Of a stretch of 41,776 bases of DNA, positions 3,991 through 19,878 are shown one piece after another (the stretch's first letter is position 1; each line of letters begins with the position of its first letter). The stretch comes from a virus. The translations under genes and the position numbers were made by a program. The stretch is from positions 1 to 41,776 of the IMG/VR virus record IMGVR_UViG_3300037200_000089; one strand, 5' to 3'. The notes under the pieces are model-generated. The model had not been told where the DNA came from. It made no database searches and worked only from the letters and a program-made list of their open reading frames with translations.

Positions 3991-5658
3991 ATGGCCACTC
4001 GCTACAACCGGAACACCAACACGAGCTTCGACGATGGGATTCCGCCTGCGGGCAATGCGCGGTACCAGAAAGGCCAGGTGACGACGGTGCCGGGGCCGAA
4101 CGGACCGGTGTACCCGAACGGGAACGGGAATCCACCCGGTGCGTTTCCCTCGCGGTTCGCCACGCCGGTCGCTCCCGCGCGCCGCGGGCTCGTGGATGCG
4201 ACGCGACCAGGGGCCGTTGCGCCGACGCCCGTCCAACCGTTCGGCAATCCGTCCGATGCGAATGCCGCACTTCTACAGGCTGGTGCGCCGGGATTCGGCA
4301 ACGGTAACGTGCCGGCGGGATTGACCGGATCGTTTTCGGCCACTGTGCCAGCGCGCAACGCGGCGGGGTATATCACGGACGCAGGAGCACAGGCGGCAGC
4401 AAATCGAGCGGCTGAAGCGAGAGCCCCATCCCGAAATCCCAATGCGCAGCCCACCGGACTGATTGCCTCGGCGCCCGTGCCCATTGACCAGCAACCGGAG
4501 GCGGTGCGCGGTTTACGGGGCACGACGATTCTGCCTGGCGGCGGATCGGTGACGATTGGCGGCCCGACGCCGAAAGGTATTGTCGGTGGAGCGCCGGACG
4601 TGGCAGCGGGGACCGGCCCGGGGATTTACGTCAACGGCGTGCTCCAAAACAAGCAGGCTGACGGCACGTTTGCCGCTGGGGGTCCAGGCGGTAACGCGCC
4701 GCCCGCATTCAAGGATGGATTCACCGTCGCTCCGGGCGTGCAGACGGCGCTCATCCAGAAATATCCCAGTCTGGCCGTGGCGGGTAGCCCGCAGAACAAA
4801 GCCTTTCTCTCCACCTTGGCCGCGAGCGGTAGCGATGGATCGGACGCTGCGGACATCGCGGACAAGCTTTTTGGCGGCAAGAACGAGGCGACGCTTCGAC
4901 CGGACATCGGTGCGACCAACTTCAAGCCGGTCCCAACTTCATCTCAGCCGCAAGCGTTGACGTCTGACGCGAAAGCGTTCACTGGCGCTCCACTCGCGCT
5001 AAATACGGGAGCGGCGACGCCTTTGCCGACTGAAGGCGATCCGTTTGCCACGCGGCCATTGCCAGATTTAGCCAGCATCGCGCCGGTTGCTCCGAGTCCG
5101 GGTATGACCGCGCCACTGAGTCCGGGCGCGCAAGCCGCGCAGAACGCGAAAACCGCAGTAGGTAACGCCGCGAGCGCCGGGTATGGAGCGGTCGGCAACG
5201 CGCTGGGGTATGCAGCGGATTTTGCAAGTCAATTCGGGCTACACGGGATTGCGCCGGAACCCTTGACGCCGAGTGCGCCCACGGCGACTCCGCCCGTTGC
5301 ATCGCCTCCTCAGACGCCCGGTCTCGTGATGCCAACGCCCGGCAGTCCCGTGGCTGCCGCCGCGGCGAACGCGCAACCGAGTGCCGCTCCGGCCCAGCCC
5401 GCGACGAGCGCGCCGGTTGCGCCGGTCACAAATCCCGTTGCGGCGACAACTCCTGCCGCACCGCCGATTCCGCTTGCGCCCGATGGCTCCGCGCATCCGC
5501 TCATGCCGTTTACCGCGCCGAAGTTGGACAATGCGCTCCTGACGAGCGGCGGCACTGGCGCGACGACGGCAACTCCGAATCCCGACGACGACGAGCTAAA
5601 GCGCCGACAGGCCGCCGCGAGCACCGCGGGCCTTGTCACATCTGGTGCCGGTCAGTAA
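3991..5658 (+). CDS. Low-complexity Ala/Pro/Gly-rich protein, probably virion-associated
   Basis: This 555-residue protein is rich in Ala, Pro, Gly, Thr and Asn, with no recognisable enzyme motif. Residues 1-100 are Asn/Pro/Gly-rich. The middle has short folded-looking segments (KDGFTVAPGVQTALIQKYPS at about 240-260). The last 200 residues are Pro/Ala-rich and end in an acidic-basic cap (PDDDELKRRQAAAS). Codon use is ordinary for this genome (GCG, CCG), unlike the overprinted linkers in the next gene. It is read from an N15-class promoter without Shine-Dalgarno and ends 21 nt before the giant gene, so the two may work together. It could be a linker or adaptor for the polyvalent protein. Confidence 0.6.
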   Translation: MATRYNRNTNTSFDDGIPPAGNARYQKGQVTTVPGPNGPVYPNGNGNPPGAFPSRFATPVAPARRGLVDATRPGAVAPTPVQPFGNPSDANAALLQAGAPGFGNGNVPAGLTGSFSATVPARNAAGYITDAGAQAAANRAAEARAPSRNPNAQPTGLIASAPVPIDQQPEAVRGLRGTTILPGGGSVTIGGPTPKGIVGGAPDVAAGTGPGIYVNGVLQNKQADGTFAAGGPGGNAPPAFKDGFTVAPGVQTALIQKYPSLAVAGSPQNKAFLSTLAASGSDGSDAADIADKLFGGKNEATLRPDIGATNFKPVPTSSQPQALTSDAKAFTGAPLALNTGAATPLPTEGDPFATRPLPDLASIAPVAPSPGMTAPLSPGAQAAQNAKTAVGNAASAGYGAVGNALGYAADFASQFGLHGIAPEPLTPSAPTATPPVASPPQTPGLVMPTPGSPVAAAAANAQPSAAPAQPATSAPVAPVTNPVAATTPAAPPIPLAPDGSAHPLMPFTAPKLDNALLTSGGTGATTATPNPDDDELKRRQAAASTAGLVTSGAGQ

Positions 5659-5679: not shown

Positions 5680-8600
5680 ATGGACCCGTTTGGAATCAAT
5701 CAGCCGGATCAGGCGAGCGTGCCGGGATTGCCATCGGCACCGGATCAGACTGGGCAAGAAACAGCGCCGTCGCCCACATTCCCCGCTCAAACTGCGACGC
5801 AGGAGCAATTACCCGCCCCGACACCACCAGCGGTTCAACCCCTTTCGTCTGGCCTGATTAGGGGCGTGCGTCCGGTTCGGGCGGGGGACTTGCAATACCA
5901 GCCCGGTCCCGCAGCGACTGACAGTCTGAGCACGGACACTCAAGTACCCAATCAGGGAGTTCTTTCGGCTGATCCGCTTGGGTCATTGCGTTCAGCCGGG
6001 CAATCTCCCGCTCAGCCCGCTCCCGTCGCCGCGTCTGTCCTCGGGCTTGAAGCGTCAGCGAATGGTTCCGGCGTCGCTCCCGCTCAACCAGGATTGTCAG
6101 CAGGCGCACAGCCGTACAGTCCGGACGGGAGGATGCCTGCTTTAGCAACTCCTGGTGCTCTCGCAGGAGCCAGCAATACCGGCGCTCAGCAACCCGCCGG
6201 GACAATCGCTCCTGACGCTGGCGCGTCCCCATCCACGTCCCCATCCACACCCCCCACAGAACAGCCGTCAACACAATTAACGCAACCAACGATTCCGGGT
6301 ATGCCATCGGCCCAGCCTGCCGGTTCCGCTGGCGCCGTTCAAGGAAAACCGTACTCGGTCGATGCGGGCGGCAATATCCAGTTTGCGCCCGGCAAAATTG
6401 CGGACGGATTGCTCGCGGCGCATCAGGATGGCGCGATAACGAGCCAGCAGATCAAGGACTTGCTGCCGAAGGCCGTGGACGCGGACAATGCAGCGGCAGC
6501 GCAGCAGACGGCGCTCAGCAATGCGGCGCAAGACCCGTTGTCATGGGAGAAAGCACTGGCGCATGGAGCAGCCAAAGGCGGATCATTCATCGCGGGCGCT
6601 CTGCCGGCGGCGGCTTTAGCGGCTCCCCTGGGCGCTGCGACATTTGGCGTCGCCCCGGTCGTGGCCGGTCTCGTCGGTGGCCTTATCAGCGAGCACGCAG
6701 CCAGCGCGGTCGGCACGGAACTTGCCAAGCACTCGGACACGATCAAATCGTTCGCGGACGCAGCACAGGCGCATCCGTACTACGACGCGGCGGGAAATCT
6801 GGTGAGCCTCGCGATCCCCGGTGTCGGCGCTGCGCAGAATCTGCTGGAGGCTGGCGGCGTGGCGGCGGAGGACGCGGCCAAGGCAGGGCTATCGTACGGC
6901 GGCCAGATTGGCGCGGGGATTAAAGCCGTTGCGCCAACCCTCGCCAAAGGTGCCGGTGCTGGCGCGCTGTTCGAGACCTACGGGCGGCAACCGGTGGAGA
7001 ACGTGTTCAACTCTGGGCTCGATGCGCTAGGCATATCGCACGACCCGAGCCAGGCACCGACCGCCGGGAGTGTGGCGCAGAATGCGCTGCTCGGCGCGAT
7101 GCTGGCCGGAGAAGGCGTTAAAACTTCCGACCTGCTCAACGTGGACATATCCGGCGTGATGCGGCGCGGTGCGGAACGTGAGAACGCAGGGATTCCGCTT
7201 GATGCGAAGTTCAACGACTCGCGGCAGGACGCAGTCAATCCTCCGCTCTCGCCAGCGGAACAGGCGCTCTATCAAAAGGGCAAGATTGCCGTCGTCAAAG
7301 ACGTGCAGAACGGCGGCGTGGCCGCGCAGGCTATTGCGGGGATGACCGGGCGGCAGGCGACCGATGCGGGCGGCAGGCCGATTGCGACGACGGTTGATCT
7401 TGCGCCGAAGGATGCGGGTGGACCCGCAACTCCGGGCGCGCCCGGTCCCGGTGCCGGTCCAGCGCTTCCTGGGCTTCCGTCCATACCGTCTCCAGTAGAT
7501 CAGCAGTCAGCTTCTGGTCTCGCCGGAACCAGCGCTCAAGCGCCAGGCGCTTCCTCCGCTCCCGGCGCCACAAAGCAAGCGTCGCCACAAACAGCGCCGA
7601 CAGGATCGTCGCAATCATCCATCGAGCCTGTCATCACGACGCCATCGGGTCCAGCCATTTCGCCGCCGGCCGATGTGGACGATGCGCGCACACGGCTGAC
7701 TCGCATCGGTTCGCCTACGGCCTTCGACTCGCTTCGAAGCATCGCCAAACTTCCAGCCGCCCAGCAACTTCCGGCGTATCAGGACGCGATTTCGGCAGAG
7801 GGCGGGAAGGTCGCGCAGAATCTTCCATCAGCATTTAGCCCGGGCGATACGCTCAGTGCCGGGCCGCAGCGCTTCAGCGTCTTGGGCGGCGACGAGACAA
7901 CGACGTTCGTCAGCGATCCGTCTCGTCCGGGCGCTCCTGCTCGACGGGTGGCGACGGCTGATTTACAGGCGGATGTGGTGAACGGGCGGCTGGCGTACGA
8001 GGCGGTTCCGGCAGCAGCAACCCCAGTAGGCGCCACGCAGAAGAGTACCCCATCTCCTTCCCACGCACCGAATGAGTCAACGTTAGTCTCGAAGCCATCC
8101 GCCGATCAAACACCCGCCACGCCGCAGAGTCAATCCAATGAGCCGAACACGAAAACGCAAGGAGCATCTGGAGCGCTTCCCGCGCAAGCCAAAGCGCCAC
8201 AACCACCAGAAAGCGCCGCCCGTACCAATGGACCCGTCATTGCGGGTCTCGACGCTCCGGTGCGGGAAGGTAGCGCGACAGGCCCGGCGGGAACTGCAAA
8301 GCCCGCTGCCGATGCTGGGAGCGCTGGGGCCGGGGCAACAGGCGATGCTGGACGGGTTGAAGCCGGTGCTGGACCCGTAGCGACCCGCGTACCGTTCGCG
8401 CCCGAGACCGGCACGCTCGGCGTCCCGCGCGATCAAATGCCGCAGGTTGCGAGCGAGCACCGGGGTGCGATGGCGAACTTCCTCTCCGCGCGCGGCATGG
8501 ACGTCTCGGCGGGCGAGATGCTGCCGGGGCAACTAAAGCCGTCGCAGGCCGACTACAACCCGGGCAAAGTCGCCAAGGCCGGCGAGATCCGGATGGCAGG

Positions 8601-11600
8601 CGAGGATAACCCGCGCCGCATCCTCGTGTCCAACGATGGCTACGTGATCGACGGCCATCATCAGTGGCTAGATCGGCTGCAAAACGATCCGCACGAGTTC
8701 ATGCCGGTCTTGAAGATTGATGCGCCCGCCGCTGAGATTCTCAAGCAAATCCACGAGTTCCCGAGCGCCGGGATGGAAAAGGCGCCGGACATTTCGCCAA
8801 TCCCGGGCTTGCCGGTGTCTAAAGATGCTGCCGAAAAGAAGTCCACGCGCCAACTACTGGAGGAGTTCATGGGCCGCGTTGCGCAGCGTCATGAAGACGA
8901 GGCGTCAGGCCAAGCCGTGTTGGACCATTTGGAGGACAATGATATTTCGCCGCAGACGGTCGTGAAGACGTTCTGGGCCAAGACGTACGACAATCTGCCG
9001 GACCATATCCAGAAACGCTTCCAACGCATGATAACGGCAGTCACGGGATTTACTCCTGGCGACCCGATCGCCAGCCAGAGGCAGCCCGATGGCAGCGTGA
9101 CTACTATTACTGCAAGGAACTGGCAGGACACCTTCGACCCGCCCGCCGCAGCCAGCAATGCCCGCGATCTTGAGGGCATAGAGCGAGGGTTGATCGTCAA
9201 CATGTATCTTGCGAATCAGGGCATGGGGGCATTAAAGCCAGCGTCAGCACCTGGGCCAACACCACTCTTGCCAGGAAAGCCTGAGCCTGCTAAAAAGACC
9301 CCAGATGAACCGGCCACCAAAAGCGACACACGCACAGAGGCAAGCGGTGTACGCCCGGATGAAGTCAGTCCGGCACAGCCCGGTGGGCGCGGCGGTGCAG
9401 ACATCGACCGCCCCGCAACTCCCGCAGCCGGAGGGCGAAAGCCAGCCCGCACCGACATTCGCGGGCGCGTCCGCTTTAGCGAATCCGATGCAACCCGCGT
9501 AGTCGAGGCCGCGCACGCCGAGCACTCATCGCTTGGCGAGGATTCGCCGACACTGGCCGCCAAGACGTTCGAGGCTCCGGCCCGGGTCGAAGCGCCGCGG
9601 CGCACAAAGGCGCAGCAGGTTCTCAACGACAGCGGGACGGGCTTCAAGGAGATTGCGCCCGACAGCGATCGCTTGGCTGCGGTTCGCACATGGCTCGCCG
9701 ATCAGCGCATGGGCGGCCTGAATCCGACGCCGGGAGACGTGGCGCGCGCCAAGCAGATTCCGCCGGCCACGGCAAAGCGGTTGATCCAGGACCAGCGCCA
9801 GGCTGAGTTCGAGGCGCGAGCGAACGCGAAGGGTTCCGGCATCAAGTACAACGACGCTACGCGCGAGATCAGTTACGACCCGGATCAGTTCGCGCAGTCA
9901 GTGCAGAATATCAACGACCACGGCGGAGATGGCGAAGGCTGGGCGCGCGCGAGCGTGCTCGAGGAACACAAGCACGACCTTGGGACGCAGGCCGCTACGT
10001 TCGCCGGCGGCATCGACAAGGTGCGCGACGAGATCGCAGCCGCGTTGCCGCAAGAGAGCTTCGACGCGATGCGGTCAGTCTACAGGACAATTCACCGGCC
10101 CGAGCATTTGAGCGACGAGCAGGCGGCCACGCACGAGCGCGAACTGATGGCCGAGGAATACATGGCCCGGTACGCGATGCGCCAGCAGGGCGAGAAGCTG
10201 CCCGAGGAGTTCTGGCAGCCGCCGGAGAAGGTTGCGCCGTTGCTCAAAGCTCTGGACGGTCCCCAGCCCGCGGCGGTCTTGGCTCAGTACGCCCGGATGG
10301 AGCACCTCGCGCCAGCCGCGAAGCCAGCGCCATCGTCGCCATCCGTTGCCACACCAGCGAGCGAACGTAAGCAAGCGGAGACTCCGACTCCTGCTGCATT
10401 ACCACGTCCGCCGCCGCGTCAAGCTGACGAGCCAGAGGTTGCAAGCCATAAAGAAAAGCCTGTGCCTGAGAAAAAGCAACGGACCTTCCGCATCCCGTAC
10501 GCGCCGGTTGGCGATCAGCCGGACGTGATCGACTACATTGTTGACCAAGGCGGCATCCAAGGCAGCACTGCGGCCAAGCGCATCGCGAAGGGCAAGGGCA
10601 TTATCGGCGGCGCTGCGGGAGACTACGACGACAGACCGAATCTGAAGGGCATTTACCAGTCTGCGGTTTTCGGCGGGCGCATGGCTGCGGACCAGATGGC
10701 TGAATTGCTCTACCGCGAGCACGCAATAGGCGACGGGACCATTGGCGCAATGTACGCGGCCATCGATCAGGCGATGCAGTCGCGCAAGAGCGGGCGCGTG
10801 GAGAATGCCCGGCAGGCGTTGGAGCAGAAACAAGCCGAACGCTTCCATCGCGACACCGGCACGGAGAAGAAGGGTGACAAGGTTGTTCACGCCGGCAACC
10901 TTGCCGTGGGCGACACGATCACGGTCGAAGGCCAGAAGCTCAAGGTGATCGATGTGGACCCGGAGAGTCTGGATGTCACGCTCGAAGACCACAGCGAATA
11001 TGGAGTTCAGAGGATCGCGAGCGGGAGCGTCATCTACGTCCAGAAGATGCAAAGGGCCACGAAACCCGTGGTCGAATCGCCGGTGTCGCCCGACAAGCTG
11101 ACTGAGCGCGAACAGTTCCGAAACTGGTTACACGTAGCGGCGGACAGCCCGCAAAAACTTCGCGCAATCGATGTTGACCGCGTGATGAGTACGGCGCGAG
11201 ACCCGGCACAGGTTGAGCGTTTGCGGTCCTACCTGCTCTCCGAAGCGCTTGGTGCTGAAGCTAAGGCGGAAGTGCGAAACTGGAAGCCTGACGACAATGT
11301 CCCCACCCTTCGCCGCAATGAAAATCAGGGCGACCTACTGTCCAAGCAAACCGAAGACCTGACGCTAACGGGCGAGACCGGGACCGACCACGAGAAAGTG
11401 CAACGCGCAAAAGAGGCAGCGGCTAAAGCAACTGCTGATGCCAAGGCCAAGCAGGACCGCGAGCAAATGGCGCTCCCGGGAACGACGGAAACACCTTTTA
11501 GCCCCGCGCTCAAAGAGCAGGCCCGCAAGGCGGGGATTTACGGCAAGATCGACGCACCGGCCAAACCGCAGATTACCTACGAGCAATTCGCGGCTCAGTA

Positions 11601-14600
11601 CCGCGACGCGTTCAAGCAGGGCAACAAGTACGATCCGAGGCTCCACGTCGGCTCGCAACACTTCAGTGACAAGATGGCCGCACTTGCCGACGCACATCCC
11701 GAATGGCTCGCGCGTCTGGAAGCGGAGGAAGAAGGGAAGGCTCCCACCCTCAAACCTGAATCATCCCCGCAGAAGAGGCCCAGTCAAAGGGTTGAGGACT
11801 TTAAGCGATTGCTTGCTGCTGGTTATTCACTGGTGCGCGGAGCTTGGTTCCGTCCTGGAGGCGGTGAAGTTGGGAATATGGAGGCGGCATTAGCTCACCT
11901 GAAAGCTGCCGAGGGCAAGTCGGCGGACGACATTCCAACCCCAGAGGTAAGCGTTAGAAAATCGTCCGAGAAGGAAGTGGGCGCCGGAAAGCATCCATTT
12001 CAAGCATTCGCGAACACGAATCAGGGCGGTCGGCTTTCCGTGTCTGGGGGCGGACCTTCTGAAGAAGATGCAAGGGCGGACGCAATCCGAGAGTTTCGTC
12101 AGCAATGGAAGCGGCGCGCCGATTCACGGGTTGCCACTACCCCCAAGGCCGATCCCGAGAATTTCTTCAATCGGTCCAAGCCGGATTTCATCGGCCAGAA
12201 CCGCGCTGGAAATAACGTGTTCGAGGACAAGCGAGGCGTTCGGTCCGTGGACGAAAACGGTGCGCGATCAACTCAATCCGTTGGCTTGCGTCCCGGCGGC
12301 GGGTTCAACATCGACAGCCCGGAGAAACTGTATCGCGCAGGTCATCATGAGTACTTGACCGCAGATGAGCACGGCACGTTCGACCAGATCATCGGTCCTC
12401 CAAAAGCCGCACTCGTAGAGGCCAAGACTCCGGCAACCGCGCCGATCAGCCAGAGCGACATGCAAAAAGGCGCGAGCGCTCTTGCCGATTGGGTGGGGCT
12501 ACGACTAGCCAAACAGCAGCCGTTCAGCCTGCAACAACTATACGACGATGCGGACATGGCTTTCGGAGGAACGCAGGCGAGCGGCGCCTACTCGTTCAAG
12601 GACGCGACCGATTCGCTAGAGCTGGCGGTCAACCGGTGGATCATCGCGCGGCGCGGATTAACCAACCCTGAAGGCTCCGACGATGTAGCTACGGCGCGAC
12701 GCACCATCCAAGACCTGCAAACGCTCCTGCTCGACAATCTTCCAACCCAAGGCCGCCAGCGTAATGAGGAGATGGAGAATTTCCAGCAGTTCTCGACACC
12801 GCCCACGCACGCCTTCCTTGCTAACTGGGTGGCCAATCTGAAGCCCGGAGACACCATGCTCGAACCATCGGCGGGCATTGGTGGACTGGCTGCGTTCGCC
12901 AAAGCGGCCGGCGCACAGGTGGTCGTCAACGAACTGTCGCCGCGGCGCCTGCAATTCCTGAAGACACTGCCTTTCGACCGGTTCTTTAACGAGGACGCAG
13001 AACAGATCAATAACATCCTGCCCGCTGACGTTCGCCCTACGGTCGTCGTGATGAACCCGCCATTTTCGCAAGCCGGCGACCGGATGGGCGGCAAAACCGA
13101 CCTGATGGTTGGCGCTCGCCATATCGAGGCCGCTCTCAAGCGATTGCAACCAGGCGGCAGGCTCGTGGCAATCGTGGGCCGCGGCATGGCGATGGACGCG
13201 CCGACGTTCCGCGAATGGTGGAAGCGCATCGCCGCGAGCAATCAGGTGCGCGCCAACATCGAAATTTCCGGCGACGAGTACAAAAAGTACGGCACCACCT
13301 TCGACAACCGCTTGCTGGTGATCGACAAAGTTGCGCCGGTTGTCGGACAGGAACTGGTCGGTGGGTCCGTCCAGAAGGTTGACGAACTGCCCGCGCTGCT
13401 CCAAGGTGTACGTGATGGGCGCCCAAGCACAGCAAGAATCTCCGATCAACATCCGGGCGCGCCAGCTCCTGCTCCAAGCGAAGTTCGACCCGATTCACGG
13501 CCAGCCAGCAGCGCTCCAAGTGCTACGCCTCGCCCTGGACGAACCGGACAAGGTGAAAGTTCGGCCCGACCTGGCGGAGCAAGCGGAAGCAGAAGTCCAA
13601 GCGCTCCTGTTGATGCCCCAGAACAAAGCCCAGAGCCTACTGAATCGCGCCGGCCTGACAGCGAGCAGGCTCGTGCAGACCAAGACGCTCTCGGAGTTCG
13701 CCCAGGAGCTTCTGGAGCAACTCCTGTCGGTGGTACAGGAAAACCAGCAACCAGCGCCCGAACAGGTTTACTGACGCCGGTCGATGCGGCTGACGTCAGC
13801 ACGCACGAAAAGATCGCCCACGACAAGGACACGCCGGACACTGTTTTCGACACGTATCAGCCGACCGTAAAGGTTGCTGGCGCAAAGGCCCACCCGGCGC
13901 CGTTGGCTGAGAGTTCGGCGATGGCGTCGATCAATCCGCCGGCCACGACGTACAAGCCGAAGATCGACCGCAAGTTGATTGCCGATGGGAGGCTGTCGGA
14001 CGCGCAACTCGAAAACATCGTCCTGGCAGGCGAGTCGCATTCCAAGTTATTGCCCGATGGCAGCCGCCGCGGGTTTTTCATCGGAGACGGTACGGGTGTC
14101 GGAAAGGGCCGTGAGATCGCCGGAACCCTGATGGACAACATGAACCAAGGCCGAAAGAAAGCGGTCTGGATTTCGTACAACTCGAGTCTTTTCAAAGACG
14201 CGCAGCGGGACATGGAAGGCGTAGGACTGGGTAAGGATCAACTCATTGACCATTCCAAAATAAAGAGTGGAGATATCATTGGACAAAAAGAGGGCGTCTT
14301 GTTTTCCACATATTCCACACTAGCGCGAACGACGAGCCAAGGAATTACCGCGCAAGAGAGGGATCGAGGATATCTATCGCCGGGAGATGTCGTCATGCCG
14401 GTGAACCCTTTTTCCTCGAATCCAGATGACGGCATAGATAATCCCAAGGTCCACTTTAGGATTACCGGAAGGAAAAGGGTGTTGCGCATTGGAGGCTCAG
14501 ACGCTGCTGCCTATCCAGCGGTGAACGTGGTGACGGGCGAAGCGGTGAGTCTCATGCACGCCGAGATCAATCACAATCGCTATGTCAGCCGTACAAAGGA

Positions 14601-17600
14601 GATTGCGGCGAGCCGGCTGGATCAGATCGTGAAGTGGCTGGGTCCAGACTTCGACGGCGTGATTGCGTTCGATGAGGCGCACTTGATGGGTAATGCAGTA
14701 TCCATCCGTGGCGCGCGCGGCATGAAGAAGCCGAGCCAGCGGGCGCTCGCGGGGGTTGAACTGCAAAAGGCGCTCCCGAAGGCGCGCATCCTTTACGTGT
14801 CGGCGACCGGTGCAACGGAGGTGTCGAATCTCTCCTACGCTGAACGGCTTGGCCTTTGGGGGCCGGGAACCGCATTTGAAGGCGGCAAAGGTCCATTTAT
14901 TTCTTCGATTGAAGGCGCCGGCGTGGCGGCGATGGAGATGGTTGCGCGTGATCTCAAGGCAATGGGGCTCTATATGGCCCGGTCCATATCCTACCACGGC
15001 GTTACATTCGAGCGATTGGAGCACAAGCTAAGCACCGATCAGACCGAAATTTACGACGAACTAGCCGGCGGTTGGCAGACTGTTCTGGCCAACATGGACT
15101 CGGCCCTGGGGGTGACCGGGCAGGCCAAGAATGGTAACGCAGTATCGCAAGCACGCAGCCAGTTCTGGGGAACGCACCAGCGGTTTTTCAGCCAGGTGAT
15201 GACGGCGATGCAGATGCCGAGTGTGATTGACAAGTTGGAGGAAGACCTGAAGGCCGGTTCGTCGCCGGTCATTCAACTGACCAATACAAACGAGGCGCAA
15301 CTCGCGCGCATCCTGACAGAAAAACAGAAGCAGGCCGAAGAAGATGACCAGGAAGTTGATCTTGAAACCCTGGACTTTACGCCACGGCAGGGGCTCATGG
15401 ATTACATCCAGCGCGGGTTCCCAACCCAACAGTACGAAGAATACACGGACGAGGAAGGCAATGTGCGCACGCGTCCGGCTAAAGACAGCGAGGGAAATCC
15501 AATCCAGAACGCCGAGGCCGTCGCGATGCGCGACCAGATGCTCGACAGCCTGGCATCCCTTCGAGTTCCTGAGAACCCGCTCGACATGATTATAAATCAC
15601 TTCGGCACAGACAATGTGGCGGAGGTCACTGGGCGCACCCGGCGTGTCGTAAAGAAAAAGGACAAGAACGGCGTGGAAAGGATGGTGCAAGAGCCGTGGG
15701 GAAAGACTCATAGCGAGGCCGACGCGGATTCCTTCCAAGCAGACAAAAAGCGAATCCTGGTGTTCTCTGCGGCCGGCGGAACCGGCAAGAGTTATCACGC
15801 CGACCTGAGCGCCAAGAATCAGCGCTTGCGCCAGCATTACATTCTCCAAAGCGGTTGGCGTGCGGACGGCGCGGTGCAAGGGCTGGGCCGAACCCATCGA
15901 TCCAACCAGGCGCAGCCACCCAATTACAGGTTGGTTTCTACCAATCTGAACGCACAGAAGCGGTTCATCTCCACTATCGCGCGTCGGATGGAAAGCCTGG
16001 GAGCTTTAACCAAGGGTCAGCGTGACAGCTCCAGCCAGGGAATGTTCTCGGCGGCGGACAACCTGGAGACTGAATACTCGCGGGACGCCATCCGCGATTT
16101 ATACGGAGACATCGCGCGGGATCACGTCCCTGGCGTGGATGCAGCGGACTTCCAGGCGCAAATGGGACTGCTTCTGAGTGCGGAACCCGACGTCAAGACG
16201 TTCCTGAACCGAATGCTCAACCTTAAGGTCGCCGACATGAATCGCGTCTGGGATGAGTTTTTTGAGCGGATGACTGACCGCGTGGAAATGGCTCGTCAGC
16301 GCGGCGAGCTGGATACCGGCATGGAGACAATCCGGGCGCTTAACGCTGAAGTCACCCAAAAGAGCCTATTGCACACCGATGCTGGGACGGGCGCAAAAAC
16401 GGAGTATCAGCGGGTTCAACTGACGCAGCCCGCGCGAGTAATGACCGTCAATGAGATGCTCAAGCGCGGGGCGAAGAGCGGGTTTGTACGCAACAGGAAA
16501 AGCGGCATGGTCTGGGCAAATCTGGGCGAGCGCAACGTCACGGCCAAGAGCGGCAAGGTTGAATTGCGCCTGATGTTGATGAACCACAAGTACGGCGTCA
16601 GCGACGCACTGCCTTACGACGTCAGCGAGTATTCCGATTCCAAGTACGAGCCCGTTACTTCCGATGCTGCGAAGCCTTTGATTCAAGAGGCGATTGACCG
16701 GACGCCAAAGACCTACGACGAGACCGCGCACATGATTACCGGGGCGCTCCTGCCCATCTGGGCTCGACTCAAGGGTGCTGGATCAGTTCAGCGCATCACG
16801 TTGGATAACGGCGAGCGGATTCTTGGCCGTCGCGAGAGTGAAGAGACAATCGGACCCTTGCTGCGAGACTTCCAGGTTGCACAACAGAACGCCGCAGTCA
16901 CGCCAGAGCGGGTTATTGAACATCTTTTAGCCAATGGGGGGCGAGTGCGGCTGGCGAACGGGACCACTATTACGCGCCGGTCCGTATACCAGGATCGCCG
17001 GTTGGAATTGCAAAACTTGAAGGTCGACCCGCGCGCGCTGACGCCGCTGGGAATGCAGAGCGAGCGCATAGGTTATGAAAGCCGCTACTTCATGCCAGAG
17101 GATAAGGCTGCGGCCATTCTCGCCCGCGTCATGCTCAATAACCCGGTCGTTGAGGGTATGTCGGGCGGCAACGAACTGCGCGCATCAATGCCGATCTTCG
17201 GTTCGACGTTCGACCAGGTCGCCGACGAATACGCGGCCCGCGGGTCCAAAGACCTTGTGGCTGCCGGATACGACGCGGCGCACACGAAAGCGGAGCTGGC
17301 CGGCGAGCAGGTTGCTTCGTCGATCCGGCAGGACCTGCCCGACAAATCGGACCGCGAGGCGATGCCGTTCGTCATCGAGGCCGGGGGCGACCCGCCGAAG
17401 CTTCTGGACTTCCGCGCGAAGGTCGCGGCGAGTAAGGATGCAAAGCTATCCAAGAAGTACGTGCCGGTCATCGATCACGCGATTTCCAACTTCCCGCGCC
17501 TTCAGGCTGCCCGCGCGAATCACGACAAGATCATGGCGGATAACCTGGCCGAACTGCGGGCGGCCGGCGTTGACGTGGGCGAGGTCATAGACTACGTGAC

Positions 17601-19878
17601 GCGCAAGCTCGGCCTGCCCGATGCGGTCAAAGACCTGCTGCCCAATCCGCTGTTTTCGATGGGAACGGGCAATGCCGGAGGATCCCGCTACTTCGCCAAG
17701 GGCCGCGTGTTTGAGTCCTTGGCCGATGCAATCGAGGCCGGATACCCGCCCAAGAGCACGGACCTGGCCGACCTGGACCGGCACCGGATCAGCGCGGCAA
17801 CGCGAATCCTGGAGCACAAGGCGTTCATCAATGCGCTCAAGGCCACGCCTTCGCCTACCGATGGAAAGCCGATCGTCGGCAAGTTCGAGCAGCGAAAGGT
17901 TCTGAGCGGCGAGACCGAGCGCGTGACGCCGAAGGGGTACACGAGCGTCCGCACGACCGCAGGCGAAGTGCCGATTCACGATCAGTTCGCCCATCTTTTT
18001 AAAGACCTGTACGGGGACAGCGCTGTGCGGCGGGTCGCGGCGTTCCGGGCGCTCTTGAAGGCGGCTGCAACGGTCAAGGTCTACACGCTGTTTGGCGACA
18101 CGTTCCACATTGGCCGGCAGCTTTACAAGATGGCGACCGGCGGCGGCGGCCTGCCTTTCACGATGGTCAACGGCAAGCCACAGGTGAATATCCGCAACGG
18201 TCTGGCGCTGATCGAGCGCACCGATGCCGATAACGCGCGGGCGGTCGCCAGCGGCGAGATCACGCAGCGCGAGGCGGATTACGCGCGGGATAATCGCCCG
18301 CAGTTCGAGGAATTGGTCAACGAAGGGCTAAACGTGGGCCGCGTGGCGGACAATTTGGTCCAGCAGGCGCACGCTCACATCCCGGGGATGCAATGGGTTA
18401 ACGACTGGATTTTCTCGAAGCTCTCGCGGTCGGCGATGGTCCAGACGGCGCTGGTGAACTACCAGCGCAATCTCAAGCAGTTCCCCGAGCGCAGCCAGCA
18501 GGAGAACGCGCGCCAGACGGCCAAGGAGATGAACGAGCTATTCGGCAACCTGCAAAATCAGGGGTTGTTCAAAAACAAGACGTTTCAGGACATCGCGCGT
18601 TTGGTTTTTCTGGCGCCGCAATGGGCGGAAAGCCAGTTGCGTTACGAGGGCCGAGCCTACGGGCAGTTCGGGCGCGCGGCCTATGACGCGGTGCGCGGAG
18701 TGCCTCCGGCTGGCGGCGGCGGCGGTAAGGGACCACCAGGACCGCCCGGCGGCCCGAACGGTGCGCCGATTGGCCCGCAGGACGACGCCAATGTTCCACG
18801 CGGAACGCGGGCGCGGCGGTTGCGCCTTGGCAACGCGGCTCGAGCAATGGCGGTTGGATTCACGAGCCTGTTCCTGGCAAATCAAGTCATCAACTGGCTG
18901 TCGCGCAAGCAGTTTACTTGGGACAACGAAGAGGACGGACACAAGCTCGACGCCTTCATTCCCGGCGGCAAACGTGGCTTCTGGTTCGATCCCTTCGAGA
19001 TCGCGGGCGAGTACGCGCACGCGGCGTTCAAGTACGCAGCCCAGCACGAGGACCCCGTGGACGTGGCGACGCACATCCTCAGCAACAAACTCTCTCCGAT
19101 TGGCCGCGGCGTGAAGGACGCGCTGACGGGACGCGATTACGCCGGGCGCCCATTCTTGAGCAACACGGACCGGTTTCGCGAGGCCGCGGTAGACGCCCTG
19201 CCATCGCCGATACCATTGGGGTCGGTCATGGAGAAAGACCCGCGTGCGCCGCTTGGGTATCGCCTGAGTCGCCAGCCTGGCAGCGTGGAAAAGCAGTTGC
19301 TCCAATCGTTCGGCGCAAAGGTGTCCTACGCGCAGTCGCCCCGCTCTCAGATGTTCGCGCTCGCCCAACCGTTCCGGGCTGACAAGGTGGGCACGGATTC
19401 GGCGGGCGAATACACAGCCCTCCGGGCCGCATTGGACAACGACGAAGAAAAATCTTCGCAGGCCGAGGTGCAATGGCTGCTGGGCCGGGGCAAGAGTATT
19501 CCACAGATCGAACGCGCGGTGAACATACAGACCGACCGGCGCGACGGGAGCAAGTACGTGAGGCCTGAGATGTTCGCCGGGAGCGCCGACCGCGAGCAGG
19601 AGTTCGTGAAGTCACTCTCGGCCGGTGACGCCAAGCTCTACGCGCAGGCCCAGCAGGACAACGTCGATAACGCGGTGAAATTCCTGACGTACACAAACGA
19701 CCTGCTCTCGACCAACGCCGACGCCGCCAAACTCGCGCGGATAAACGGCGGCGCGGCCGATGCGGCGAAGGCGCAGGCCAAGAGCATCAAGACTGCCGCG
19801 CCACCGCGCGTCCCGGTAGCCCCCGCGCCCGCAATGGCCGCATCAGGGCCGACGTTTGCGACAGCGTTCGGACGGTGA
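5680..19878 (+). CDS. Giant polyvalent protein: ParB-like, zincin-like, N6-adenine MTase, Strawberry-notch-like helicase
   Basis: This 4732-residue protein begins with a Pro/Ala-rich region (1-215) and a hydrophobic Ala/Gly stretch at about 299-340. The ParB-like motif YVIDGHHQW is at 988-996. A zincin-like segment has EEHKH at 1428-1432, where HExxH would be expected, so the first His is missing; MAEEY follows downstream. A DNA methyltransferase has LEPSAGIGG at 2394-2402 and NPPFS at 2459-2463 (N6-adenine type). The SF2 helicase has GDGTGVGK at 2802-2809, DEAH at 2998-3001 and QGLGRTHRSNQ at 3400-3410, diagnostic of the Strawberry-notch family. About 1300 helical residues follow, with a possible membrane segment near 4390-4410. 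Such architectures are described as polyvalent proteins of phages and conjugative elements, thought to be delivered with the DNA. It is the longest gene by far and several linkers are overprinted. Confidence 0.9.
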   Translation: MDPFGINQPDQASVPGLPSAPDQTGQETAPSPTFPAQTATQEQLPAPTPPAVQPLSSGLIRGVRPVRAGDLQYQPGPAATDSLSTDTQVPNQGVLSADPLGSLRSAGQSPAQPAPVAASVLGLEASANGSGVAPAQPGLSAGAQPYSPDGRMPALATPGALAGASNTGAQQPAGTIAPDAGASPSTSPSTPPTEQPSTQLTQPTIPGMPSAQPAGSAGAVQGKPYSVDAGGNIQFAPGKIADGLLAAHQDGAITSQQIKDLLPKAVDADNAAAAQQTALSNAAQDPLSWEKALAHGAAKGGSFIAGALPAAALAAPLGAATFGVAPVVAGLVGGLISEHAASAVGTELAKHSDTIKSFADAAQAHPYYDAAGNLVSLAIPGVGAAQNLLEAGGVAAEDAAKAGLSYGGQIGAGIKAVAPTLAKGAGAGALFETYGRQPVENVFNSGLDALGISHDPSQAPTAGSVAQNALLGAMLAGEGVKTSDLLNVDISGVMRRGAERENAGIPLDAKFNDSRQDAVNPPLSPAEQALYQKGKIAVVKDVQNGGVAAQAIAGMTGRQATDAGGRPIATTVDLAPKDAGGPATPGAPGPGAGPALPGLPSIPSPVDQQSASGLAGTSAQAPGASSAPGATKQASPQTAPTGSSQSSIEPVITTPSGPAISPPADVDDARTRLTRIGSPTAFDSLRSIAKLPAAQQLPAYQDAISAEGGKVAQNLPSAFSPGDTLSAGPQRFSVLGGDETTTFVSDPSRPGAPARRVATADLQADVVNGRLAYEAVPAAATPVGATQKSTPSPSHAPNESTLVSKPSADQTPATPQSQSNEPNTKTQGASGALPAQAKAPQPPESAARTNGPVIAGLDAPVREGSATGPAGTAKPAADAGSAGAGATGDAGRVEAGAGPVATRVPFAPETGTLGVPRDQMPQVASEHRGAMANFLSARGMDVSAGEMLPGQLKPSQADYNPGKVAKAGEIRMAGEDNPRRILVSNDGYVIDGHHQWLDRLQNDPHEFMPVLKIDAPAAEILKQIHEFPSAGMEKAPDISPIPGLPVSKDAAEKKSTRQLLEEFMGRVAQRHEDEASGQAVLDHLEDNDISPQTVVKTFWAKTYDNLPDHIQKRFQRMITAVTGFTPGDPIASQRQPDGSVTTITARNWQDTFDPPAAASNARDLEGIERGLIVNMYLANQGMGALKPASAPGPTPLLPGKPEPAKKTPDEPATKSDTRTEASGVRPDEVSPAQPGGRGGADIDRPATPAAGGRKPARTDIRGRVRFSESDATRVVEAAHAEHSSLGEDSPTLAAKTFEAPARVEAPRRTKAQQVLNDSGTGFKEIAPDSDRLAAVRTWLADQRMGGLNPTPGDVARAKQIPPATAKRLIQDQRQAEFEARANAKGSGIKYNDATREISYDPDQFAQSVQNINDHGGDGEGWARASVLEEHKHDLGTQAATFAGGIDKVRDEIAAALPQESFDAMRSVYRTIHRPEHLSDEQAATHERELMAEEYMARYAMRQQGEKLPEEFWQPPEKVAPLLKALDGPQPAAVLAQYARMEHLAPAAKPAPSSPSVATPASERKQAETPTPAALPRPPPRQADEPEVASHKEKPVPEKKQRTFRIPYAPVGDQPDVIDYIVDQGGIQGSTAAKRIAKGKGIIGGAAGDYDDRPNLKGIYQSAVFGGRMAADQMAELLYREHAIGDGTIGAMYAAIDQAMQSRKSGRVENARQALEQKQAERFHRDTGTEKKGDKVVHAGNLAVGDTITVEGQKLKVIDVDPESLDVTLEDHSEYGVQRIASGSVIYVQKMQRATKPVVESPVSPDKLTEREQFRNWLHVAADSPQKLRAIDVDRVMSTARDPAQVERLRSYLLSEALGAEAKAEVRNWKPDDNVPTLRRNENQGDLLSKQTEDLTLTGETGTDHEKVQRAKEAAAKATADAKAKQDREQMALPGTTETPFSPALKEQARKAGIYGKIDAPAKPQITYEQFAAQYRDAFKQGNKYDPRLHVGSQHFSDKMAALADAHPEWLARLEAEEEGKAPTLKPESSPQKRPSQRVEDFKRLLAAGYSLVRGAWFRPGGGEVGNMEAALAHLKAAEGKSADDIPTPEVSVRKSSEKEVGAGKHPFQAFANTNQGGRLSVSGGGPSEEDARADAIREFRQQWKRRADSRVATTPKADPENFFNRSKPDFIGQNRAGNNVFEDKRGVRSVDENGARSTQSVGLRPGGGFNIDSPEKLYRAGHHEYLTADEHGTFDQIIGPPKAALVEAKTPATAPISQSDMQKGASALADWVGLRLAKQQPFSLQQLYDDADMAFGGTQASGAYSFKDATDSLELAVNRWIIARRGLTNPEGSDDVATARRTIQDLQTLLLDNLPTQGRQRNEEMENFQQFSTPPTHAFLANWVANLKPGDTMLEPSAGIGGLAAFAKAAGAQVVVNELSPRRLQFLKTLPFDRFFNEDAEQINNILPADVRPTVVVMNPPFSQAGDRMGGKTDLMVGARHIEAALKRLQPGGRLVAIVGRGMAMDAPTFREWWKRIAASNQVRANIEISGDEYKKYGTTFDNRLLVIDKVAPVVGQELVGGSVQKVDELPALLQGVRDGRPSTARISDQHPGAPAPAPSEVRPDSRPASSAPSATPRPGRTGQGESSARPGGASGSRSPSAPVDAPEQSPEPTESRRPDSEQARADQDALGVRPGASGATPVGGTGKPATSARTGLLTPVDAADVSTHEKIAHDKDTPDTVFDTYQPTVKVAGAKAHPAPLAESSAMASINPPATTYKPKIDRKLIADGRLSDAQLENIVLAGESHSKLLPDGSRRGFFIGDGTGVGKGREIAGTLMDNMNQGRKKAVWISYNSSLFKDAQRDMEGVGLGKDQLIDHSKIKSGDIIGQKEGVLFSTYSTLARTTSQGITAQERDRGYLSPGDVVMPVNPFSSNPDDGIDNPKVHFRITGRKRVLRIGGSDAAAYPAVNVVTGEAVSLMHAEINHNRYVSRTKEIAASRLDQIVKWLGPDFDGVIAFDEAHLMGNAVSIRGARGMKKPSQRALAGVELQKALPKARILYVSATGATEVSNLSYAERLGLWGPGTAFEGGKGPFISSIEGAGVAAMEMVARDLKAMGLYMARSISYHGVTFERLEHKLSTDQTEIYDELAGGWQTVLANMDSALGVTGQAKNGNAVSQARSQFWGTHQRFFSQVMTAMQMPSVIDKLEEDLKAGSSPVIQLTNTNEAQLARILTEKQKQAEEDDQEVDLETLDFTPRQGLMDYIQRGFPTQQYEEYTDEEGNVRTRPAKDSEGNPIQNAEAVAMRDQMLDSLASLRVPENPLDMIINHFGTDNVAEVTGRTRRVVKKKDKNGVERMVQEPWGKTHSEADADSFQADKKRILVFSAAGGTGKSYHADLSAKNQRLRQHYILQSGWRADGAVQGLGRTHRSNQAQPPNYRLVSTNLNAQKRFISTIARRMESLGALTKGQRDSSSQGMFSAADNLETEYSRDAIRDLYGDIARDHVPGVDAADFQAQMGLLLSAEPDVKTFLNRMLNLKVADMNRVWDEFFERMTDRVEMARQRGELDTGMETIRALNAEVTQKSLLHTDAGTGAKTEYQRVQLTQPARVMTVNEMLKRGAKSGFVRNRKSGMVWANLGERNVTAKSGKVELRLMLMNHKYGVSDALPYDVSEYSDSKYEPVTSDAAKPLIQEAIDRTPKTYDETAHMITGALLPIWARLKGAGSVQRITLDNGERILGRRESEETIGPLLRDFQVAQQNAAVTPERVIEHLLANGGRVRLANGTTITRRSVYQDRRLELQNLKVDPRALTPLGMQSERIGYESRYFMPEDKAAAILARVMLNNPVVEGMSGGNELRASMPIFGSTFDQVADEYAARGSKDLVAAGYDAAHTKAELAGEQVASSIRQDLPDKSDREAMPFVIEAGGDPPKLLDFRAKVAASKDAKLSKKYVPVIDHAISNFPRLQAARANHDKIMADNLAELRAAGVDVGEVIDYVTRKLGLPDAVKDLLPNPLFSMGTGNAGGSRYFAKGRVFESLADAIEAGYPPKSTDLADLDRHRISAATRILEHKAFINALKATPSPTDGKPIVGKFEQRKVLSGETERVTPKGYTSVRTTAGEVPIHDQFAHLFKDLYGDSAVRRVAAFRALLKAAATVKVYTLFGDTFHIGRQLYKMATGGGGLPFTMVNGKPQVNIRNGLALIERTDADNARAVASGEITQREADYARDNRPQFEELVNEGLNVGRVADNLVQQAHAHIPGMQWVNDWIFSKLSRSAMVQTALVNYQRNLKQFPERSQQENARQTAKEMNELFGNLQNQGLFKNKTFQDIARLVFLAPQWAESQLRYEGRAYGQFGRAAYDAVRGVPPAGGGGGKGPPGPPGGPNGAPIGPQDDANVPRGTRARRLRLGNAARAMAVGFTSLFLANQVINWLSRKQFTWDNEEDGHKLDAFIPGGKRGFWFDPFEIAGEYAHAAFKYAAQHEDPVDVATHILSNKLSPIGRGVKDALTGRDYAGRPFLSNTDRFREAAVDALPSPIPLGSVMEKDPRAPLGYRLSRQPGSVEKQLLQSFGAKVSYAQSPRSQMFALAQPFRADKVGTDSAGEYTALRAALDNDEEKSSQAEVQWLLGRGKSIPQIERAVNIQTDRRDGSKYVRPEMFAGSADREQEFVKSLSAGDAKLYAQAQQDNVDNAVKFLTYTNDLLSTNADAAKLARINGGAADAAKAQAKSIKTAAPPRVPVAPAPAMAASGPTFATAFGR
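5858..6307 (-). CDS. Possible antisense gene: one TM segment plus coiled coil (spanin-like shape)
   Basis: This 149-residue frame lies antisense to the first linker of the giant gene. It starts MAYPESLVALIVLTAVLWGV, a good single membrane segment, followed by a long basic/acidic helix (QERLSRRVAERR and later ERERRRNHSLTLQARGQTRR) and a CPCSDC cluster. This shape fits an inner-membrane spanin (Rz-like). AGG lies 8 nt before the ATG. Caution: in this antisense phase, Ala/Pro-rich sense codons automatically give CNG/GNG codons (Leu, Arg, Gln, Glu, Val), which look helical. No promoter is evident. Real expression is uncertain. Confidence 0.35.
   Translation of the reverse strand: MAYPESLVALIVLTAVLWGVWMGTWMGTRQRQERLSRRVAERRYCWLLREHQELLKQASSRPDCTAVRLLTILVERERRRNHSLTLQARGQTRRRERAEREIARLNAMTQADQPKELPDWVLECPCSDCQSLRDRAGIASPPPEPDARP
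7331..7618 (-). CDS. Possible antisense gene: TM segment plus basic helix
   Basis: This 95-residue frame lies antisense to the second Ala/Pro-rich linker of the giant gene. It begins MIATILSALFVATLALW, then RRERRKRLALERWF and a helical LTADLLETVWTEAQEALDRH. The last 35 residues are Pro/Ser/His-rich and less convincing. It is in the same antisense phase as the frame at 5858-6307 and has the same TM-then-helix design. Either the two are paralogous-looking membrane proteins or both are products of the codon-table effect on Ala/Pro-rich sense codons. A CAGGCTCGATGG context precedes the start. Confidence 0.28.
   Translation of the reverse strand: MIATILSALFVATLALWRRERRKRLALERWFRRDQKLTADLLETVWTEAQEALDRHRDRARPELRVHPHPSAQDQPSSQSACRPHRSPAARSSPQ
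8138..8380 (+). CDS. Possible overprinted gene: small basic protein (+1 frame)
   Basis: This 80-residue frame is nested in the third linker of the giant gene, in the +1 frame. It begins MSRTRKRKEHLERFPRKPKR and ends MLGALGPGQQAMLDGLKPVL. The nested frame uses codons typical of this genome (CTG, CGC, AAG, GCG, CCG). The giant-gene frame at the same place drifts to GCT, CCT, GGA and CAA. No Shine-Dalgarno is seen before the ATG. A highly basic small protein could bind nucleic acid, but no family is recognised. Less certain than the nested frame at 13415. Confidence 0.4.
   Translation: MSRTRKRKEHLERFPRKPKRHNHQKAPPVPMDPSLRVSTLRCGKVARQARRELQSPLPMLGALGPGQQAMLDGLKPVLDP
9305..9502 (+). CDS. Possible overprinted small gene (+1 frame)
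   Basis: This 65-residue frame is nested in another Ala/Pro-rich linker of the giant gene, in the same +1 phase as those at 8138 and 13415. It starts MNRPPKATHAQRQAVYARMK and becomes Pro/Gln/Ala-rich. Codon use in the nested frame is normal, but the host frame is not clearly distorted here. No Shine-Dalgarno. I list it because of its position and phase, with low confidence. Confidence 0.25.
   Translation: MNRPPKATHAQRQAVYARMKSVRHSPVGAAVQTSTAPQLPQPEGESQPAPTFAGASALANPMQPA
13415..13774 (+). CDS. Overprinted gene inside the giant gene (+1 frame), helical protein
   Basis: This 119-residue frame lies in the linker between the methyltransferase and helicase domains. AAGGTG (13402-13407) sits 7 nt before its ATG, a good Shine-Dalgarno. 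The product has a balanced composition and predicted amphipathic helices (INIRARQLLLQAKFDPIHGQ, DLAEQAEAEVQALLLMPQNK, TLSEFAQELLEQLLSVVQEN). Its codons are those of the rest of the genome (CTG, CTC, GCG, GAC, AAG, CAG). In the giant-gene frame the same bases give a Pro/Ala/Ser/Gly linker written with unusual GCT, CCT, CCA and GGA codons. That bias swap indicates the nested frame is the constrained one. Function unknown; a partner of the flanking methyltransferase or helicase is an inference. Confidence 0.65.
   Translation: MGAQAQQESPINIRARQLLLQAKFDPIHGQPAALQVLRLALDEPDKVKVRPDLAEQAEAEVQALLLMPQNKAQSLLNRAGLTASRLVQTKTLSEFAQELLEQLLSVVQENQQPAPEQVY

Follow-up and report, generated by a model that had tools for sequence, protein, structure and literature searches.

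A conserved small gene probably overprinted in the +1 frame on the methyltransferase–helicase linker of a giant phage protein

Positions 13415-13774 (plus strand) of the IMG/VR virus record analysed here, a stretch of 41,776 bases referred to below as the window, very probably (with a probability of about 0.93, judged from sequence comparison) form a translated and selected +1-frame gene, contained entirely in the sequence that encodes the linker of a giant protein, between its methyltransferase and helicase regions. The nested gene comprises 119 codons and a stop, and its product is acidic (pI 5.1) and predicted to be all-helical. Overlapping genes are well known in tiny viruses; what is unusual is an out-of-frame gene that is long, widely conserved and embedded in a giant gene of a tailed phage. 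The product represents a protein family not described before, whose fold is predicted with confidence and for which the databases gave no match, and the finding offers a handle on how the methylase-helicase proteins that guard incoming DNA may be assisted or controlled. The original prediction had placed an overprinted gene in this linker, and it is now supported by homology within a family, by an inversion (flip) of the GC content at the codon positions, and by the pattern of substitutions.

The host of the nested gene is the largest ORF of the record (5680-19878, plus strand), which encodes a polyvalent-type protein of 4,732 amino acids. Its methyltransferase region (12763-13332, plus strand; host residues 2362-2551) contains an NPPF motif and matches phrog_9133 (E=5e-19) and the DNA methyltransferase phrog_6263 (E=3.5e-11), while the match to Pfam MTS (E=0.0018) is below the cut-off of that family. 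After it come the Pro/Ala/Ser/Gly-rich frame-0 linker with atypical codons (13414-13776, plus strand), overlapped by the nested gene, and two Strawberry-notch regions, namely the AAA_34 NTPase, whose best-matched stretch is found at 14584-15060 (plus strand; E=6.5e-110), and the C-terminal Helicase_C_4 (15574-16326, plus strand; E=2.9e-80). The host protein combines in one polypeptide an adenine methyltransferase with an NPP[FY] motif and, after it, an SF2/SNF2-type helicase, as is typical of the DarB type. This methylase-helicase dyad of polyvalent proteins, including a Strawberry-notch variant cited from Methylomonas, has been described (PMC5512222), and the host gene shares the architecture, with that variant, as far as it is set out in the relevant part of that work. 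According to the same part, P1 DarB is located in the virion head and host-type proteins protect incoming DNA (PMC5512222). The contig also has a match to a terminase and weak ones to head and portal proteins, which would be consistent with carriage of the host protein in the virion.

Codon use clearly distinguishes the overlap from the rest of the giant gene. In frame 0, A or T is the third base of 81% of the Ala, Pro and Gly codons over the overlap. The corresponding shares are 31% for the remainder of the giant gene and 27% for the low-complexity protein at 3991-5658; both the codon swap that had been proposed for the linker and the normal codons that had been noted in the low-complexity protein were thus recovered. 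The GC contents at the frame-0 codon positions 1, 2 and 3 of the overlap are 0.74, 0.77 and 0.35, and both sides are normal. A codon model trained on the genes of the window assigns 0.37 bits/codon to the +1 ORF, inside the range of those genes (0.26-0.45), in agreement with the earlier claim that its codon use is normal for the genome. The same model gives -0.41 bits/codon for frame 0 over the same DNA, and at most -0.13 bits/codon for 433 further +1 windows taken from the giant gene; a second nested gene elsewhere in it was rejected for this reason. As a separate observation, the N-terminal Pro/Ala/Ser-rich part of the giant gene (5860-6400 in the window) is likewise low in GC3 and, apart from the overlap, is where the frame-0 coding score falls lowest; no +1 frame scores as coding within it.

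Relatives were collected by a protein search with the methyltransferase-to-helicase stretch (one viral contig, two Defluviitaleaceae contigs and plasmid records) and by an alignment-based search, from which 80 viral loci were kept out of 159 relatives. For 93 loci, the sequence could be anchored to either side of the linker and frame 0 stays in register throughout; one of them, the alphaproteobacterial L011, has a frame-0 stop in the linker. Stop codons in the +1 frame of relatives, named beforehand as evidence that would speak against the gene, were looked for, and the frame proved to be open over 88-166 linker codons in all 78 distinct relatives outside five alphaproteobacterial plasmids; the median open length at these loci is 133.5 codons in the +1 frame versus 35 in the +2 frame. 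One of them (L092) was left out because it has no recognisable homologue, and the remaining 77, which were those analysed, all have the +1 ORF in their methyltransferase-helicase linker. At these 77 distinct loci, frame 0 crosses the linker without a break, alongside an open +1 frame. The carriers of the nested gene are phage contigs, four gammaproteobacterial plasmids, and Clostridia MAG contigs. The gene is absent from twelve alphaproteobacterial-type relatives, which are more distant than the carriers, and on a tree of the conserved parts the presence or absence of the gene requires two changes. The nearest relative of the window by path is L014, and the highest identity over the conserved parts is 62%.

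No stand-alone copy of the family was found with two tblastn queries in phages and plasmids and in one class of genomes. The nested-family profile gave two matches in 291 genomes (the class of G001), both of them nested, and the plasmid search returned only the four nested copies and one partial match (E=0.9) on a Rhizobium plasmid. Direct searches with single nested proteins against viral_contigs, and with that of L029 against phages and plasmids, gave no match, probably due to the fast divergence of these proteins. In Vibrio phage D274 (L098), no +1 ORF of at least 70 codons occurs in the region examined. The nested gene is listed in none of the annotated carrier records (L005 and L006, and L099 for the Bacteroides type described below); disordered linkers of polyvalent proteins can therefore hold genes that the pipelines behind these records do not list.

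Across the family, the nested start has a fixed position where frame 0 encodes L-L-E-G-[IV]-R-[ND]. In the window, the Shine-Dalgarno-like sequence AAGGTG (13403-13408, plus strand) falls within the frame-0 codons of this peptide, in the conserved form L-L-x-G-[VI]-R-[ND], and 6 nt before the ATG of the 119-residue ORF; the original prediction had noted a Shine-Dalgarno at the right distance. The start codon is ATG in 74 of the 77 distinct loci, GTG in two, and ACG in one (L087). A 4-base Shine-Dalgarno-like word precedes the start in 74 of the 77 loci and, in frame 0, the codon that overlaps the start is AAT or GAT in 73 (the flanking Asn and Asp codons being 1,318 NAT versus 1,607 NAC), although these counts are partly circular, since the starts were chosen using a Shine-Dalgarno score and six were set by hand. 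The homology, the GC flip and the substitution pattern are independent of this choice. Ribosomes would begin the nested protein independently, at its own ATG, the Shine-Dalgarno sequence being presumably built from the frame-0 codons of the conserved L-L-E-G-I-R-[ND] peptide, and a single mRNA would in this way yield both the giant enzyme and the small protein.

Signs of selection come from the codon positions and from the substitutions. The codon-position GC check that had been suggested was applied to the family: frame-0 GC3 is lower than GC2 over the overlap in 77 of 77 loci, and only in 6 of the 77 left flanks and 11 of the 77 right flanks. Three of the twelve gene-free controls (L013, L110 and L113) also have GC3 below GC2, by a margin of 0.05-0.09, the smallest margin among the 77 carriers being 0.16. 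In all eight alignable pairs, the most substituted frame-0 position is the first in the overlap, which is the third of the nested frame, and the third in the flanks. The substitutions pooled from six non-overlapping pairs number 222, 158 and 116 at positions 1, 2 and 3 of the overlap versus 92, 46 and 333 in the flanks (chi-square p=2e-48); in the gene-free alphaproteobacterial linkers, all six pairs have most changes at position 3. Over the same DNA, the amino acid identity is higher in the nested frame than in frame 0 in 12 of 12 pairs. The phase of the substitutions points to purifying selection on the second frame, and these comparisons indicate a stronger constraint on the +1 frame than on frame 0 within the overlap. 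It is important to note that the copy in the window has no close relative, so that selection on it is deduced from the family.

The products of the family (n=77) have 87-145 amino acids, with a median net charge of -6 and a median pI of 4.8; 71 of them are net negative and 66 have a pI below 5.5. Their homology was assessed with a leave-out profile, from which the tested protein and all relatives sharing at least 35% identity with it had been removed. In this way, 65 of the 77 nested proteins are found at E<1e-3 (E=8e-12 for that of the window), the best of 1,001 shuffled control proteins reaching E=0.014. Two proteins outside the training set are also found, L117 with E=1.3e-23 and L097 with E=4.6e-17. 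Four loci (L050, L051, L063 and L091) have no match to the leave-out profile at E<1 and nevertheless keep the start, the GC flip and the open frame, while L041, the tree neighbour of L051, matches the profile well; in these four, the product may either have diverged very fast or have been replaced. AlphaFold, with 52 diverse rows, produced a six-helix model of the window protein (pLDDT 86.2, pTM 0.80). Among eight nested proteins, including that of the window, none reached a curated cut-off in Pfam/NCBIfam and the best PHROG match had E=0.11; a PDB profile search with the nested protein gave only E values of 0.034 or higher, and Foldseek found no match to the model at E<=0.001 in PDB and BFVD (best VIA-align Z 5.2). 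Given the acidity of the family, a DNA-mimic antirestriction protein was considered and set aside, as the charge (median -6) seemed too weak in comparison with DNA mimics of the Ocr kind.

A second, unrelated +1 gene seems to exist in Bacteroides phages. In the phage BS-TP4 (L099:3761-4120) and in eight related viral contigs (L100-L107), a +1 ORF of 104-125 codons, starting near MEQKYY, follows the methyltransferase (nine of nine), and the GC flip extends over it in all nine. According to profile comparison, the BS-TP4 nested protein is unrelated to the first family, and no Shine-Dalgarno-like sequence common to the nine starts was seen. When the most distant locus, L107, is left out, frame-0 position 3 is never the most substituted in the overlap and always is in the flank. 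This gene looks as if it occupied the same linker as the first family.

Regarding which frame is older, codon usage has been employed as a criterion for the ancestral frame of an overlapping pair (PMC3744397). By this criterion, as given in the part of that source that deals with it, a better codon fit in the +1 frame would make the +1 frame the ancestral one; codon usage fits the genome better in +1 at only 55 of the 77 loci by counts and at 50 of the 77 by RSCU. On the contrary, the existence of fused relatives without the nested gene argues against the +1 frame being older. A broader scenario, which we consider possible but doubtful, is that the linker acts as a recurrent gene nursery, with at least two unrelated small +1 genes (one in Proteobacteria/Clostridia-type elements and another in Bacteroides phages), and that the small gene may predate the linker frame in the first lineage, the linker being the overprinted one, so that read-through of the small gene would have helped to fuse both enzymes or to keep them fused.

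Several other explanations of the +1 ORF have to be weighed. It might be a chance open frame, in which a GC-rich Pro/Ala/Ser/Gly linker simply lacks +1 stops and nothing is translated. The length of the ORF is what such an account predicts: when the frame-0 linker of the window is reshuffled synonymously, a +1 frame as long as the observed one arises with p=0.40 using the codon usage of the flanks and with p=0.39 using the linker's own codons, and some gene-free alphaproteobacterial linkers contain open +1 frames of 110-134 codons (134 in L112 and 128 in L011). Length was accordingly rejected as evidence, since by itself it cannot justify the claim of a gene, and the case relies instead on codon use, position, homology and substitution pattern. 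Chance leaves the homology, the codon-position flip, the conservation of the start and the substitution pattern unexplained, and the gene-free linkers have neither nested homology nor the +1 substitution pattern, so that we find this account hardly credible. A programmed ribosomal frameshift out of the methyltransferase, giving a methyltransferase-nested fusion and no separate protein, would agree with a +1 frame that most loci keep open for a few codons upstream of the ATG; in three, the open stretch measures about 120 codons. Nonetheless, that frame closes at a median of 8 codons upstream of the nested start (within 10 codons in 45 of the 77 loci and within 30 in 71), which favours an own start and independent initiation, and the nested ATG and the Shine-Dalgarno-like sequence are conserved; frameshifting thus appears very unlikely.

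A different matter is what a separately translated product does. We tentatively propose, at somewhat less than even odds, that the nested protein serves the methyltransferase-helicase as an accessory partner, since copies of the family were found only inside the gene for that enzyme. The small protein, made beside the methyltransferase-helicase from a shared message, would assist it as an adaptor, a chaperone or an activity switch, and the partner would act in DNA protection or entry. The main competing view accepts the gene as real and takes its product to be independent of the methyltransferase-helicase, with a role for example in host takeover, virion assembly or regulation, its location being explained by the tolerance of disordered linkers to a second frame. 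Indeed, the frame-0 linker shows weak conservation and a composition typical of disorder, which makes it permissive, and a different +1 protein in what seems to be the same linker of Bacteroides phages is as a permissive slot predicts. A gene with such a free role would, however, be expected to stand alone somewhere, and the two tblastn queries and the one genome class covered revealed no copy of the first family outside this slot; we judge an independent product to be a serious candidate, although less likely than not.

Out-of-frame embedded genes are known in phages, such as E within D of phiX174 and Rz1 within Rz of lambda, both of which encode lysis proteins. As in these two pairs, translation of the second protein in the present case would begin within a phage gene, in a frame other than that gene's own; unlike E and Rz1, the proteins of this family look soluble, are acidic and helical, and are encoded inside a methyltransferase-helicase gene. 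A parallel for the linker itself is provided by two eukaryotic viruses: in hepatitis B virus, the polymerase spacer overlaps the pre-S frame, and in apple stem grooving virus, the movement protein frame lies over the linker between replicase and coat, the second protein being the more conserved (PMC8227390). In these viruses, as outlined in the sections of that source that concern them, and in the window alike, a disordered inter-domain linker shares its DNA with a protein in another frame. Those viruses have small genomes, whereas the present case is a gene of dsDNA tailed phages and plasmids, with its own bacterial ribosome-binding site and from an unrelated family. Neither the term "overprint" nor "frameshift" occurs in PMC5512222, and the passages of it that were consulted mention no nested gene. 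A literature search that covered few subscription papers likewise retrieved no earlier description of the nested gene or of such an arrangement in phages. P1 DarB was considered as the host of a similar gene and discarded; unlike the window, its two long +1 ORFs tested (177 and 128 codons) have a normal GC pattern, with no codon-position flip.

Testable carriers are available in a cultured Bacteroides phage and in named Methylomonas and Methylotuvimicrobium plasmids. In the Methylotuvimicrobium plasmid (L005:1501-1590), an in-frame frame-0 stop is located just upstream of the methyltransferase motif; the host gene is annotated there as separate CDSs, and the nested gene is intact. In the Methylomonas AM2-LC plasmid (L007:2561-2900), the end of the nested gene is followed by about 100 extra frame-0 residues ahead of the helicase.
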